NCBI GenBank assembly: GCA_018241325.1
Contig: JAFEEB010000005.1
Span: forward strand, 2,886 to 60,660
Direction: 5' to 3'
DNA from: Pseudomonadota bacterium
GTDB taxonomy: Bacteria; Pseudomonadota; Gammaproteobacteria; Burkholderiales; Burkholderiaceae_C
Length of the DNA: 57,775 bases
Position numbers and translations under genes: made by a program. The notes under the pieces were generated by a model. The model was not told the origin of the DNA and searched no databases. It saw nothing but the letters and a program-made list of their open reading frames with translations. This document shows positions 25,945 to 45,031 of this stretch, piece by piece. Positions within the stretch are counted from its first letter, which is position 1; every line of letters starts with the position of its first letter.

Positions 25945-27417
25945 TCACGGCATGCGCGCGATCACCTCGGCCACCGCCGCCGTCAGGCGCTTGGCGTAGG
26001 GCAGGTGCAAGAACTCGTTGGGCCCGTGCGCATTGCTCTTGGGCCCCAGCACGCCGCAGACCATCATCTGCGCGGTCGGGAAACCCTCGCTCAGCTGGCT
26101 CATCAGCGGGATGGTGCCGCCTTGGCCTATATAGCCGCAGGGCGCGCCGAAGTGCGCTTGCGACGCCGCGTCCAGCGCCTGCGCAAACCAGGGCGCCGAG
26201 TCGGGCGCGTTCCAGCCGGTGGCGGTGGCGCCGGCGCTCTCGAAGGTGACCCTGGCTTGGTAGGGCGCGTTGTCTTCCAGCAGCTGCTTGAGCTCCTGCA
26301 CGGCCTGCGCGCCATCGACCAGCGGCGGCAGGCGCAGGCTGAGCTTGAAGGCGGTGTAGGGACGCAGCACGTTGCCGGCGTCCTGCAGCGCGGGCAGGCC
26401 CTCGGCGCCAATCACGCTGAGCGTGGGCCGCCAGGTGCGCGCCAGCAGCGCCTCGACCGGGTCGCCCGACATGGGCAGCACCGACTGCTCGCGTCCGCCG
26501 CAGTCGTAATGCGCCCAGGGGTAGTTGCGAAACAGGCGATCGCCCAGGATCTGCGCCGTGGCGCGGGCCTGCTCGACGCGCTCGGCGGGGATCTCGCAAT
26601 GGAAGCTTTGGGGCAGCAGGCGGCCGGTCTTGCTGTCCTCCAGCCGGTCGAGCACCTGGCGCAGGATGCGAAAGCTGCTGGGCACCAGGCCCGAGGCATC
26701 GCCCGAGTGCACGCCTTCGGTCAGCACCTCCACCTTCAGCGTGCCCGCCGCCATGCCGCGCAGGCTGGTGGTCAGCCACAGCTGGTCGTAGTTGCCGGCG
26801 CCCGAGTCCAGGCAGACGACGAGGCCCACGTCGCCCAGGCGCGGGCGCAGGGCGTCGATGTAGGGCAGCAGGTCGGGCGAGCCGCTTTCCTCGCTGGTCT
26901 CGATCAGGCCGACGATGCGCGGGTGCGGCAGCTTCTGCGCCTTCAAGGCCTGCACGGCGGCAATCGCTGCATACACCGCGTAGCCGTCGTCGGCGCCGCC
27001 GCGGCCGTAGAGCTTGCCGTCTTCGAGCTTGGGCGTCCATGGCCCCAGGTCATTGCGCCAGCCAGCGAACTCGGGCTGCTTGTCCAGGTGGCCATACATC
27101 AGCGCGGTTTGCGTGGCCCCTGGCTTGGTGCCCGCAATGTCGAAAAAGATCACCGGCGTGCGGCCCTCGACGCGGATCACCTCCAGCCTCAGGCCCGGCA
27201 CCTTCTGCGCCTCGACCCAGGCGGCGGCGTTGCGCACCACCGTGTCGATGAAGCCGTGCTGCGCCCAGGCCGGATCGAAGGCCAGCGACTTGGCCGGGAT
27301 GGCGATGTAGTCGGTGAGCTGGCGCAGGATGTCGCCGTCCCAGTGGGCATCGATCTGGCGCTGCGCGGCGGCGGCGTCCATGACGGCGGCGAATTCTGGC
27401 GTGTGGGGGGCGTTCAT
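25945..27417 (-). CDS. M20-family metallopeptidase
   Basis: 490 residues. Zinc-site motifs of the M20/ArgE-DapE-CPG2 clan: MYGHLDKQP (His, Asp), GRGGADDGY (bridging Asp) and ETSEESGS (general-base and ligand Glu pair). A typical dimerisation insert follows (VEVLTEGVHSGDASGLVPSS). It cleaves dipeptides or amidated amino acids; substrate unknown. The ATG at 27417 is chosen because GGAGA lies 9 bases before it; an ATG at 27432 and a TTG at 27435 are possible. Last gene of the long minus-strand run, downstream of the porin. Confidence 0.9.
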   Translation of the reverse strand: MNAPHTPEFAAVMDAAAAQRQIDAHWDGDILRQLTDYIAIPAKSLAFDPAWAQHGFIDTVVRNAAAWVEAQKVPGLRLEVIRVEGRTPVIFFDIAGTKPGATQTALMYGHLDKQPEFAGWRNDLGPWTPKLEDGKLYGRGGADDGYAVYAAIAAVQALKAQKLPHPRIVGLIETSEESGSPDLLPYIDALRPRLGDVGLVVCLDSGAGNYDQLWLTTSLRGMAAGTLKVEVLTEGVHSGDASGLVPSSFRILRQVLDRLEDSKTGRLLPQSFHCEIPAERVEQARATAQILGDRLFRNYPWAHYDCGGREQSVLPMSGDPVEALLARTWRPTLSVIGAEGLPALQDAGNVLRPYTAFKLSLRLPPLVDGAQAVQELKQLLEDNAPYQARVTFESAGATATGWNAPDSAPWFAQALDAASQAHFGAPCGYIGQGGTIPLMSQLSEGFPTAQMMVCGVLGPKSNAHGPNEFLHLPYAKRLTAAVAEVIARMP

Positions 27418-27500
27418 GGCGAGAATCTCCATCAAGGCGGCAATCCCTCACTCTACGTCAATGCACGCCGGGCTGCCCGCCACGCCCGACGCGTACCCGG

Positions 27501-28526
27501 TCAGAAGAAGTGCCGGATGCCGATGTCGAAGCCCGAGGCCGAATGGCCCGGGGTGTTGACCGGCACCGCCATGCCCTGCGCGCTGACGGCGCGGTTGGCG
27601 CCGCTGCTGTTGGTCACGTGGCCATAGCTGGCGTACAGCATGGTGCGCTTGGAGAGGTTGTAGGCGTAGCCGATGCCGTACTTGCGCCAGTTGGCGTTGG
27701 GCGCCCCATCACTGGTGCGGTAGTCGCCGATGCTGGCGCGCAGCAGGTGCAGGCCGAAGGTGGCCGTGGCACCCAGTTGAATGCCGCGCACGCCGGGGCC
27801 GCCGTCGCGCTTTTCCTGGGCCCAGATCAGCGCGGGCTTGATGGTGCCGAAGTCGTAGCTGGCGCCCAGGTTGGCGATCTTGAGCTTGCCCGCGCCGTTG
27901 AAGTCCAGCTGCGCGGCGGCCAGCGAAACGTTCAGCGGCCCGGAGGCGTAGCCGCCGCGAAAGCCGCGGTAGGTCTTGCTGGTGGGCGTGGACGCCGGCC
28001 CCCAAGCGTATTGCAGCTGGCCATAGAAGCCGCCCAGGCTCCTGGGCAGGAAGTAGCTGACGGCATTGCTGATCTGGATCGGCGCGCCGTTCATCACGAA
28101 GGTGTTGGTGCCGGCCACGCCATTGGTCAGGAAGGGATCGAAGATCAGCGTGTTCAGGAAGGTGGTCGAGTCGTCGCGGCCCAGGCGCAGTTCGCCAAAG
28201 GGGCCCGTCATGCTGACGGTGGCGCGGCGGTTCCAGAAGTTGCCGGCAGGGCCGCCGGCGCTGCCGTCCTTGCCGTTCAGGCCCGATTCGAACCAGAAGC
28301 CCGCGCCATAACCGCTGCCCAGGTCTTCGGTGCCGCGCAGGCCGATGCGCGAGATGTTGCCGCCGCTGTGCGACATGCCGGAGGTTGAGCCCCCGCCGTT
28401 GCTCAGGTGCGTGGCCGCCAGGTCCACCGTGCCGAAGATCGTGGCCTGGCTGCCCTGGGCCCAGACGGGCGTGGCCCCCACCGCACCCAGAACCAGCACT
28501 GCAATGGCCGCATTGGCTTGCTTCAT
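27501..28526 (-). CDS. General porin, OmpC/OmpF-like Burkholderiales type
   Basis: 341 residues, outer membrane. Signal peptide MKQANAAIAVLVLGAVGATP with cleavage near VWAQG. The mature start GSQATIFGTVDLAATHLSNG, the GTEDLGSGYGAGFWFESGLN segment and the C-terminal SGFDIGIRHFF with terminal Phe are diagnostic of trimeric 16-strand porins in this order. It probably admits the operon substrate. A 60-base gap separates it from the reductase gene, short enough for co-transcription. Confidence 0.92.
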   Translation of the reverse strand: MKQANAAIAVLVLGAVGATPVWAQGSQATIFGTVDLAATHLSNGGGSTSGMSHSGGNISRIGLRGTEDLGSGYGAGFWFESGLNGKDGSAGGPAGNFWNRRATVSMTGPFGELRLGRDDSTTFLNTLIFDPFLTNGVAGTNTFVMNGAPIQISNAVSYFLPRSLGGFYGQLQYAWGPASTPTSKTYRGFRGGYASGPLNVSLAAAQLDFNGAGKLKIANLGASYDFGTIKPALIWAQEKRDGGPGVRGIQLGATATFGLHLLRASIGDYRTSDGAPNANWRKYGIGYAYNLSKRTMLYASYGHVTNSSGANRAVSAQGMAVPVNTPGHSASGFDIGIRHFF

Positions 28527-43857: not shown

Positions 43858-44026
43858 GAGTCGGTCTCCATGGCCTTGGCGCATGCGCGCGCCTTGGCGA
43901 AATGTTCCGGTGCTGTCGATGGGCGGGGTGCTGCAGGCTCTGACCGGGGGTGCGAGTCTTGGCCCTGGGGGACTGGCGCGAGGTTCAGTGAAGCACTGTG
44001 CGATTGACCCCACTGCGTCGTGGGTT

Positions 44027-45031
44027 TTATTCGGCCTTGATGCCCAGCTCGTTCACGATCCGGGTGAAGCGATCCAGATCGTTCAAGGCCACCTTGCCGA
44101 GGGCCGCGGGCGCGCCGCCCACCGGCAGCATGCCCAGCACACGCAGGCGCTGCGCCACGTCGGGGTCCTTGACGATGGCGTTCAGCTCGGTATTGAGCTT
44201 GGCGACCACGCTGGCCGGCATGCCCTTGGGGCCGAACAGGCCGTTCCAGGCCACCACCTCGACGCCCTTGACGCCCAACTCGCCCAGCGTGGGCACGTTG
44301 GGGGCCAATGGCGAGCGCTGGTCCTGCGCCACGGCCAGCAGCTTTAGCTTGCCGTCTTTCAAATAGGGCTCGACCGGACCGTAGGTGATCCAGGTCAGCG
44401 GCAGGTGGCCACCCACCACATCGTTCAGGCCCGGGGCGATGCCCTTGTAAGGCACGTGGGTGAACTGCGCGCCCGCCGCGCGGTTGAACATCTCGCCCAG
44501 CACGTGCATGGGCGAGCCCGTGCCGGGGCTGGCGTAGTTGAGCGCCGTGCCCTTGCTGGCCTGGATGGCGTCGCCGAGCGTGTTGTATTTGCCGCCCGGC
44601 CCGGCGGCCAAGAACAGCGGCTGCGCGCCGACCTGAAAGATCGGCGTCAGCGCGCGCATGTCGTACGCCGTGGCCGGGCTGGGCTTGAGCACCAGCTGCG
44701 CCATGGTGACGGTGCTGGGCGCCATCAGCAGGGTGTAGCCATCGGGCGCCGACTTGTTGACAAAGCTGGTGCCGATGATGCCGCTGGCCCCCGGCTTGTT
44801 GTCCACGATGACCGGCTGGCCCAGGCGCGTGCTGAGCTTCTCACCCAGCAGGCGCGCCACGGCGTCGGTGTCGCCACCGGCCGGATAGGCCACCACGATG
44901 GTGATGGGCTTGGTGGGCCAGGCCTGGGCCGCGGCGGGCGCCATGCCCGCACCCAGCAGGCCGACTCCCAAGGCGAGCCCCAGAACTCCTTGAAGGGATT
45001 GGCGTCGTTGAACGTTTCGCATATGAATCAT
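44027..45031 (-). CDS. Bug-family (TTT) periplasmic substrate-binding protein, first gene of operon
   Basis: 334 residues. Signal peptide around RRQSLQGVLGLALGVGLLGA with cleavage near AAAQ. Bug landmarks: ITIVVAYPAGGDTDAVARLL, VIVDNKPGASGIIGTSFVNK and HVPYKGIAPGLNDVVGGHLP. No membrane partners nearby. Two start codons fit: ATG 45031 (GGAG only 3 bases before) and ATG 45022 (12 bases). A palindrome overlaps this start region. Being first, it is likely the most strongly expressed gene of the run. Confidence 0.88.
   Translation of the reverse strand: MIHMRNVQRRQSLQGVLGLALGVGLLGAGMAPAAAQAWPTKPITIVVAYPAGGDTDAVARLLGEKLSTRLGQPVIVDNKPGASGIIGTSFVNKSAPDGYTLLMAPSTVTMAQLVLKPSPATAYDMRALTPIFQVGAQPLFLAAGPGGKYNTLGDAIQASKGTALNYASPGTGSPMHVLGEMFNRAAGAQFTHVPYKGIAPGLNDVVGGHLPLTWITYGPVEPYLKDGKLKLLAVAQDQRSPLAPNVPTLGELGVKGVEVVAWNGLFGPKGMPASVVAKLNTELNAIVKDPDVAQRLRVLGMLPVGGAPAALGKVALNDLDRFTRIVNELGIKAE

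Follow-up and report, generated by a model that had tools for sequence, protein, structure and literature searches.

A shared ten-gene core within a burkholderial catabolic gene block, with kynurenate as its candidate substrate

Which compound is consumed by a compact run of eighteen catabolic genes in a member of the Burkholderiaceae, and do all eighteen belong to one pathway? The run lies on a stretch of 57,775 nucleotides from a Pseudomonadota bacterium (Burkholderiaceae_C; GenBank assembly GCA_018241325.1, contig JAFEEB010000005.1, positions 2,886 to 60,660 of the forward strand), hereafter called the window. All its genes are found on the minus strand at positions 25945-45031; seventeen had been named in an earlier note made from the sequence alone, and the remaining one encodes a 93-amino-acid protein of the HTH_62 family. 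That note had described a tight run for uptake, attack by a Rieske oxygenase, extradiol cleavage, side-chain processing and control by an IclR regulator, and rightly so, as the family assignments hold by Pfam or curated-family matches and the FAD enzyme finds its best solved match in 6-hydroxynicotinate 3-monooxygenase. The eighteen genes are a catabolic block, with a smaller shared core rather than an eighteen-gene unit. With regard to the substrate, an N-heterocyclic aromatic acid had been guessed, a guess that we judge to be probably right, kynurenate (4-hydroxyquinoline-2-carboxylate) being the best fit to the predicted enzymes. Kynurenic acid is a waste product of tryptophan, and the quinoline (kynurenate) pathway, by which Pseudomonas breaks down tryptophan, belongs to the biochemistry of the 1960s. 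We put the probability that the core degrades kynurenate by this classical pathway at roughly 0.55.

The core emerges from the comparison of related loci. A profile of the thiamine diphosphate-dependent (ThDP) enzyme of the block was used to scan named bacterial and archaeal genomes, leading to at least 545 confirmed related stretches, the best 80 of which were analysed, so that the sample leans to close relatives and contains the ThDP gene by construction. Full 10-kb flanks are available for 62 of these loci, and the counts out of 62 given below refer to them. Ten genes travel together, encoding the Rieske oxygenase, two short-chain dehydrogenases/reductases (SDR1 and SDR2), the IclR regulator, a VOC-family extradiol dioxygenase, a cupin, an alpha/beta hydrolase, the ThDP enzyme, aspartate dehydrogenase and aldehyde dehydrogenase (ALDH). 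The set is complete in 61/62 loci, the exception (L038) being without the Rieske and SDR1 genes, and in 72 of all 80, seven of the remaining eight sitting in loci shorter than 21.6 kb. Such synteny rules out a chance grouping. In addition, a search with the VOC enzyme of 398 Pseudomonadota genomes gave 15 matches, including that of the genome under study. Ten of the other 14 were examined (G216, G332, G440 and G189 were left out of the neighbourhood comparison) and eight carry all ten core genes. The weak matches in G082 and G117, as well as a second match in G377, were discarded as block members, with no core nearby.

In other words, the synteny search suggested in the earlier note shows a core that recurs widely, whereas the whole set of eighteen genes is not shared. 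A fixed eighteen-gene pathway can be discarded, as the M20 peptidase, the MHS importer and the FAD monooxygenase are not common to the loci, and the Bug proteins and the porin are likewise optional. The MHS importer, for example, is found in a single one of the 62 loci at 50% identity or more (L098, 86%), and the FAD monooxygenase in 28/62. The M20 peptidase occurs in none of the 80 named loci (0/62 with full flanks), where its place, 9.4-10.9 kb from the ThDP gene, borders the flank ends; it is also absent from the eight core-bearing genome stretches (about 28-38 kb) and from the 15 kb examined in the same-genus genome G002. Consequently, of the amine handling attributed to the block, the peptidase gives little ground, while aspartate dehydrogenase proves to be core, being present in 62/62 loci and in 8/8 core-bearing stretches of the phylum search.

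The active sites of the core enzymes are preserved throughout alignments that include the window protein and from which partial copies below 70% coverage were dropped. The Rieske oxygenase (29830..30864; PF00355 and VanA_C) has the CxH...CxxH cluster and the mononuclear iron site, with C61, H63, C80, H83, D171, H179 and D296 in 95/95 rows and H174 in 94/95. SDR1 (41710..42495; assigned by Pfam), whose gene comes immediately after that of the oxygenase in Klebsiella, Acinetobacter and Caballeronia, has N127, S155, Y168 and K172 in 96/96 and thereby the Ser-Tyr-Lys triad of classical short-chain dehydrogenases. Both the ring-hydroxylating dioxygenase and the dihydrodiol dehydrogenase classes of the kynurenate pathway are thus present with their active-site residues. 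The VOC enzyme (33366..34346; glyoxalase/VOC family) consists of two domains with the H-H-E metal triad of a Type I extradiol dioxygenase (H158 and H217 in 98/98 rows, E268 in 97/98), and its structural model (pLDDT 73.8) matches extradiol dioxygenases with a best E-value of 2e-18, catechol 2,3- and 2,3-dihydroxybiphenyl dioxygenases among them; triad and predicted fold therefore point to the enzyme class needed for a 7,8-diol.

The remaining core enzymes are equally constant. The ThDP enzyme (36819..38546) scores 889 bits against NF005470, with a cut-off of 495, and keeps E60 in 100/100 rows, and ALDH (34521..35996; PF00171, 569 bits) keeps C285 and E251 in 98/98. SDR2 (38539..39366; NF005468, 432 bits, cut-off 266) is atypical, since it departs from the classical triad by Thr for Tyr in 6/6 aligned rows and Arg for Lys in 98/98. 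These three would serve oxo-acid decarboxylation, aldehyde oxidation and C=C reduction, respectively. Aspartate dehydrogenase (36011..36814) passes the NF009827 cut-off of 226 with 412 bits, and its H220, found in 97/97 rows, aligns with H189 of the solved structure 2dc1, which we take to be the catalytic histidine. The alpha/beta hydrolase (40238..41128; Pfam) has S121, D241 and H268 in 96/96 rows, and the cupin (41144..41695; PF07883) has H91, H93 and E98 in 96/96. The cupin fold was discarded as a clue to its reaction, which may be a hydrolysis or a lyase step, as the model (pLDDT 70) gave only generic cupin matches. Finally, the PcaR/PobR-like IclR regulator (39363..40220; family matches) is present in 62/62 loci.

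From gene content, conservation, active-site residues and the fold class of the VOC enzyme we infer a substrate, its intermediates and an order of steps. In the upper part, intermediates and EC numbers follow the old quinoline pathway; the lower intermediates are a proposal of this analysis. Specifically, the Rieske oxygenase and its reductase would act as a kynurenate 7,8-dioxygenase giving the 7,8-dihydrodiol, and SDR1 would convert this to 7,8-dihydroxykynurenate, which the VOC enzyme would cleave between C8 and C8a to leave a pyridine with a four-carbon 2-oxo-acid side chain. Following cleavage, SDR2 would reduce the side-chain double bond, the ThDP enzyme would remove CO2 and ALDH would turn the resulting aldehyde into 5-(2-carboxyethyl)-4,6-dihydroxypicolinate. 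The cupin and the alpha/beta hydrolase, in either order, would then perform two hydrolyses, a lactam opening and a C-C split, releasing glutarate and aminofumarate/iminosuccinate, and aspartate dehydrogenase would interconvert iminosuccinate and aspartate. Nine core enzymes map one-to-one onto these nine proposed steps, each computed to be atom-balanced. The presence of aspartate dehydrogenase in every full-flank locus and core-bearing stretch implies aspartate or its imine as an expected product, and C2-C4 together with N1 of kynurenate correspond exactly to iminosuccinate, the intermediate of this enzyme. Moreover, a canonical SDR1 beside an SDR2 lacking Tyr and Lys would be in keeping with a pathway in which the one dehydrogenates an alcohol and the other catalyses a step of a non-alcohol kind.

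Genes that accompany the core in relatives add to this picture. In 22/62 loci, a RidA-type gene (PF01042) is located no more than 1.5 kb from the Rieske start, which would count for an imine-yielding pathway, as RidA could hydrolyse the imine to oxaloacetate and ammonia. In all 22 it is accompanied by a gene for a 110-amino-acid protein that has no Pfam match, on either side of the Rieske gene (for example, L096:16228-16560 and 17880-18320); the window carries neither. The redox partner of the oxygenase is exchangeable. The window has a VanB-type reductase (2Fe-2S flavin reductase, 28588..29562; family matches), shared by 58/62 loci, and in Klebsiella, Acinetobacter, Caballeronia and the gammaproteobacterial genomes G224 and G335 a Rieske ferredoxin and an FAD ferredoxin reductase replace it; the latter reductase is found in 0/62 full-flank named loci. 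The G224 proteins resemble the partners of anthranilate and phenylpropionate dioxygenases, a likeness that would also speak for kynurenate degradation. The 93-amino-acid HTH_62 protein (30900..31181; PF20552, 94 bits), encoded beside the Rieske gene in the window, is present in 55/62 loci, and in Klebsiella its gene lies between ferredoxin and oxygenase; possibly it serves the oxygenase as a partner instead of binding DNA.

The FAD monooxygenase (32236..33369; FAD_binding_3, NicC-like, 263 bits to 5eow/8uiq) had been listed among the attack enzymes of the pathway; with an occurrence in 28/62 loci, an optional side entry is more likely than an obligatory second attack. Where present, it could hydroxylate xanthurenate (8-hydroxykynurenate) at C7 and so arrive at 7,8-dihydroxykynurenate as well, a role that would account for its absence from many loci. 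A further side entry is hinted at by the Caballeronia NK8 plasmid pNK84. Besides a complete block, this plasmid has, at a distance of 8 kb, a second, partial set in the order ferredoxin-HTH_62-Rieske-ThDP-VOC (L161:1785-11016). After this set come genes for a molybdenum hydroxylase of three subunits and for an SRPBCC protein, and some 9 kb beyond them lies a gene of the XdhC family. N-heteroaromatic compounds are frequent substrates of molybdenum hydroxylases, as in the conversion of quinaldate to kynurenate, and such a neighbour would agree, weakly, with an N-heteroaromatic substrate, as if quinaldate were also fed in. A molybdenum hydroxylase was also suspected from gene sizes beside the block in L106 (by cluster also in L100 and L116) and was rejected, the genes being DsbB-, GlnD- and Map-like. 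Taken as a whole, the idea that the block is a complete kynurenate mineralisation set, with xanthurenate and quinaldate side entries and a new lower route to iminosuccinate and glutarate involving a catabolic aspartate dehydrogenase, is more tentative, at somewhat less than even odds.

Several observations weigh against kynurenate degradation. Tryptophan dioxygenase, which would link the block to tryptophan, is encoded in 37 of the 50 cluster genomes checked (for 50 out of 80 loci), a co-occurrence that was set aside as uninformative, and was not seen beside the cluster in the flanks inspected; in the genome under study, its gene and that of kynureninase lie on other contigs than the block. 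The title of a 1961 tracer paper by Horibata, as listed among the references of PMC11354673, speaks of glutamic acid synthesis from kynurenate, which differs from the glutarate and iminosuccinate proposed here. The large subunit of the pNK84 molybdenum hydroxylase has 4-hydroxybenzoyl-CoA reductase as its nearest solved structure, with 6-hydroxypseudooxynicotine dehydrogenase and quinoline 2-oxidoreductase ranking lower, so that its hint of an N-heteroaromatic substrate is weak. The roles of the cupin, the least certain of all, of the alpha/beta hydrolase and of SDR2 were assigned by elimination. In addition, two near relatives depart from the expected set. G037 has the other core genes on a short contig from whose block SDR2, ALDH and aspartate dehydrogenase are missing; the closest homologues that it has elsewhere reach 46% for aspartate dehydrogenase and 35% for SDR2. 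G011, of the same genus as the window (L031/L032), keeps only SDR2, ThDP enzyme, aspartate dehydrogenase and ALDH, and the match to the last of these stops at residue 325 of 491; a possibility is that this is a decaying copy.

Other substrates have to be weighed against the same evidence. The best surviving one, which we nevertheless consider rather unlikely, retains the chemistry and makes another quinoline- or pyridine-fused carboxylate, such as xanthurenate, quinaldate or a methoxy or hydroxy relative, the main substrate, kynurenate being incidental. The FAD monooxygenase of 28 loci and the molybdenum hydroxylase beside the second partial copy in pNK84 would fit, as would the exchange of one importer for another between loci (Bug, MFS, or an ABC system whose binding protein is of the NMT1 type), suggestive of varied substrates. 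However, the FAD enzyme and the molybdenum hydroxylase are outside the core whereas the Rieske oxygenase is within it, which indicates that the common substrate should need dihydroxylation. It is improbable, in turn, that the substrate is a non-nitrogenous aromatic acid, in which case aspartate dehydrogenase would either have too narrow an annotation or use some unrelated intermediate of the 2-oxo or dicarboxylic kind: the name is given by homology, and G037 keeps most of the block with no such gene nearby, but the NF009827 equivalog cut-off is passed, the histidine at the catalytic position is invariant and RidA accompanies the Rieske gene in about a third of the loci. Least probable is an aromatic acid that bears an amino-acid side chain, such as 2,3-dihydroxyphenylalanine. 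Its extradiol cleavage and C-C hydrolysis would release aspartate directly and, by analogy with the phenylpropionate pathway, would account for aspartate dehydrogenase, the VOC enzyme and the hydrolase, but would leave the ThDP enzyme, ALDH, the cupin and SDR2 unexplained; moreover, none of the 18 genes encodes a hydratase, an aldolase or an acylating ALDH for 2-hydroxypentadienoate.

Like the redox partner, the uptake genes around the core are exchangeable. The window encodes two periplasmic binding proteins of the TctC type, Bug1 (44027..45031; PF03401, 209 bits) and Bug2 (31219..32211; PF03401, 211 bits), found in 39/62 (at 45% identity or more) and 43/62 loci, respectively, an accessory MHS-type MFS importer (42502..43857; TIGR00883/shikimate-transporter-like) and a porin (27501..28526; PF13609, 172 bits; 47/62 at 26% identity or more). 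Across the loci, a Bug protein occurs in 45/62 and an NMT1-type ABC binding protein in 19/62, with both in four and neither in two. The M20 peptidase (25945..27435; PF01546), at the end of the run, is probably outside the shared pathway.

Neighbouring genes mostly overlap or are separated by at most 65 nucleotides, with three larger spacings of 169 (Bug1-MHS), 174 (ALDH-VOC) and 267 nucleotides (Rieske-VanB). The last is occupied by one copy (29666..29832, no strand assigned) of a dispersed intergenic repeat of about 135-167 bp, which separates the two genes; it is 90% identical to the copy at 25614-25780, a third copy lies at 25802-25916, and at least 52 matches are present in the genome (40 of 202 candidates scored). 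A RidA remnant in this gap was sought and rejected, the matches being at chance level. Just upstream of the block, the stretch 46000-48000 has a GC content of 0.559, compared with 0.664-0.734 in the other 2-kb windows, and holds genes for a glycine-zipper protein (46686-47132) and a DUF4124 protein (47152-47736).

The block is sparse among close relatives. Orthologues at 60% identity or more were found in only three of 60 near relatives besides the genome itself, namely G011, G037 and the same-genus G002, which has a nearly full block with no FAD enzyme. In a plasmid collection, the ThDP enzyme was matched in 16 records and the VOC enzyme in 25. The whole ten-gene core is clustered in Klebsiella pneumoniae (L155), in Acinetobacter baumannii (L156 and L166) and in Caballeronia (L158, L159 and L162), whereas in the two Novosphingobium loci (L157 and L165) a single SDR is adjacent. 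Housekeeping genes flank the block in the records of Klebsiella and Acinetobacter, which are labelled as plasmids and are therefore probably chromosomal pieces. Among the named loci, cluster-bearing strains include Delftia acidovorans NBRC 14950 (L041), Comamonas testosteroni ATCC 11996 (L056), Variovorax paradoxus NBRC 15149 (L081) and Pseudomonas resinovorans DSM 21078 (L111). The Caballeronia M1242 locus is cut by the start of its record, and that of Burkholderia multivorans (L163) carries no annotation. Two ThDP enzymes of 47% identity were excluded as block members, one on a Variovorax SRS16 plasmid with a different gene context and one in G040 with no other core gene nearby.

Public annotation of the block genes stays at the family level (VOC protein, thiamine pyrophosphate-binding protein), aspartate dehydrogenase being tagged "NAD biosynthetic process". 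If the kynurenate assignment is true, a widespread block annotated only by family gains a substrate, three activities known since the 1960s (kynurenate hydroxylase, dihydrodiol dehydrogenase and 7,8-dihydroxykynurenate dioxygenase) gain genes, and aspartate dehydrogenase, usually read as an enzyme of NAD biosynthesis, becomes a catabolic one. Given the presence of the block in Klebsiella and Acinetobacter, host-associated bacteria could then consume a neuroactive tryptophan metabolite. The assignment would also correct the labels of PA3505 and PA3506 of Pseudomonas aeruginosa, two putative members of this block. PA3505 is labelled as a nicotinate metabolism or hypothetical pyrimidine biosynthesis gene (PMC9732424) and PA3506 as part of leucine and isoleucine synthesis (PMC7760384).

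How, then, does the block compare with known systems? The earlier note knew of no characterised pathway with this set of genes, a statement that holds for gene clusters, as none assigned to kynurenate breakdown appeared among the open-licence PMC papers listed by the searches, and not for the chemistry, since the kynurenate pathway fits the enzymes. Indeed the dihydroxylation, dehydrogenation, extradiol cleavage, reductive decarboxylation and aldehyde oxidation of the quinoline pathway match the core gene classes, and it is in the lower steps to glutarate and iminosuccinate that the present proposal goes its own way. The classical meta-cleavage pathways (bph, mhp, xyl) likewise combine an extradiol dioxygenase, an alpha/beta hydrolase, an SDR and a Rieske oxygenase; unlike them, the block has a ThDP enzyme, a cupin and aspartate dehydrogenase, and none of their lower genes (hydratase, aldolase, acylating ALDH) is among the 18. 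NicC, 6-hydroxynicotinate 3-monooxygenase, is the nearest solved relative of the FAD monooxygenase, which here appears as an option beside the Rieske and VOC core. The lum operon for lumichrome/riboflavin degradation (PMC12746152) likewise directs a thiamin-dependent decarboxylase, a Rieske system (LumA-D) and an extradiol dioxygenase at an N-heterocycle. It differs in starting with a P450 and pyrimidine hydrolysis, in using a xanthine oxidase, a type of hydroxylase absent among the 18 window genes, and in ending in pyruvate and acetoacetate, with aspartate dehydrogenase unmentioned in the abstract or headings of that paper. Among the systems compared, lum offers the nearest described logic, realised with other genes and leading to other products than those of the block.

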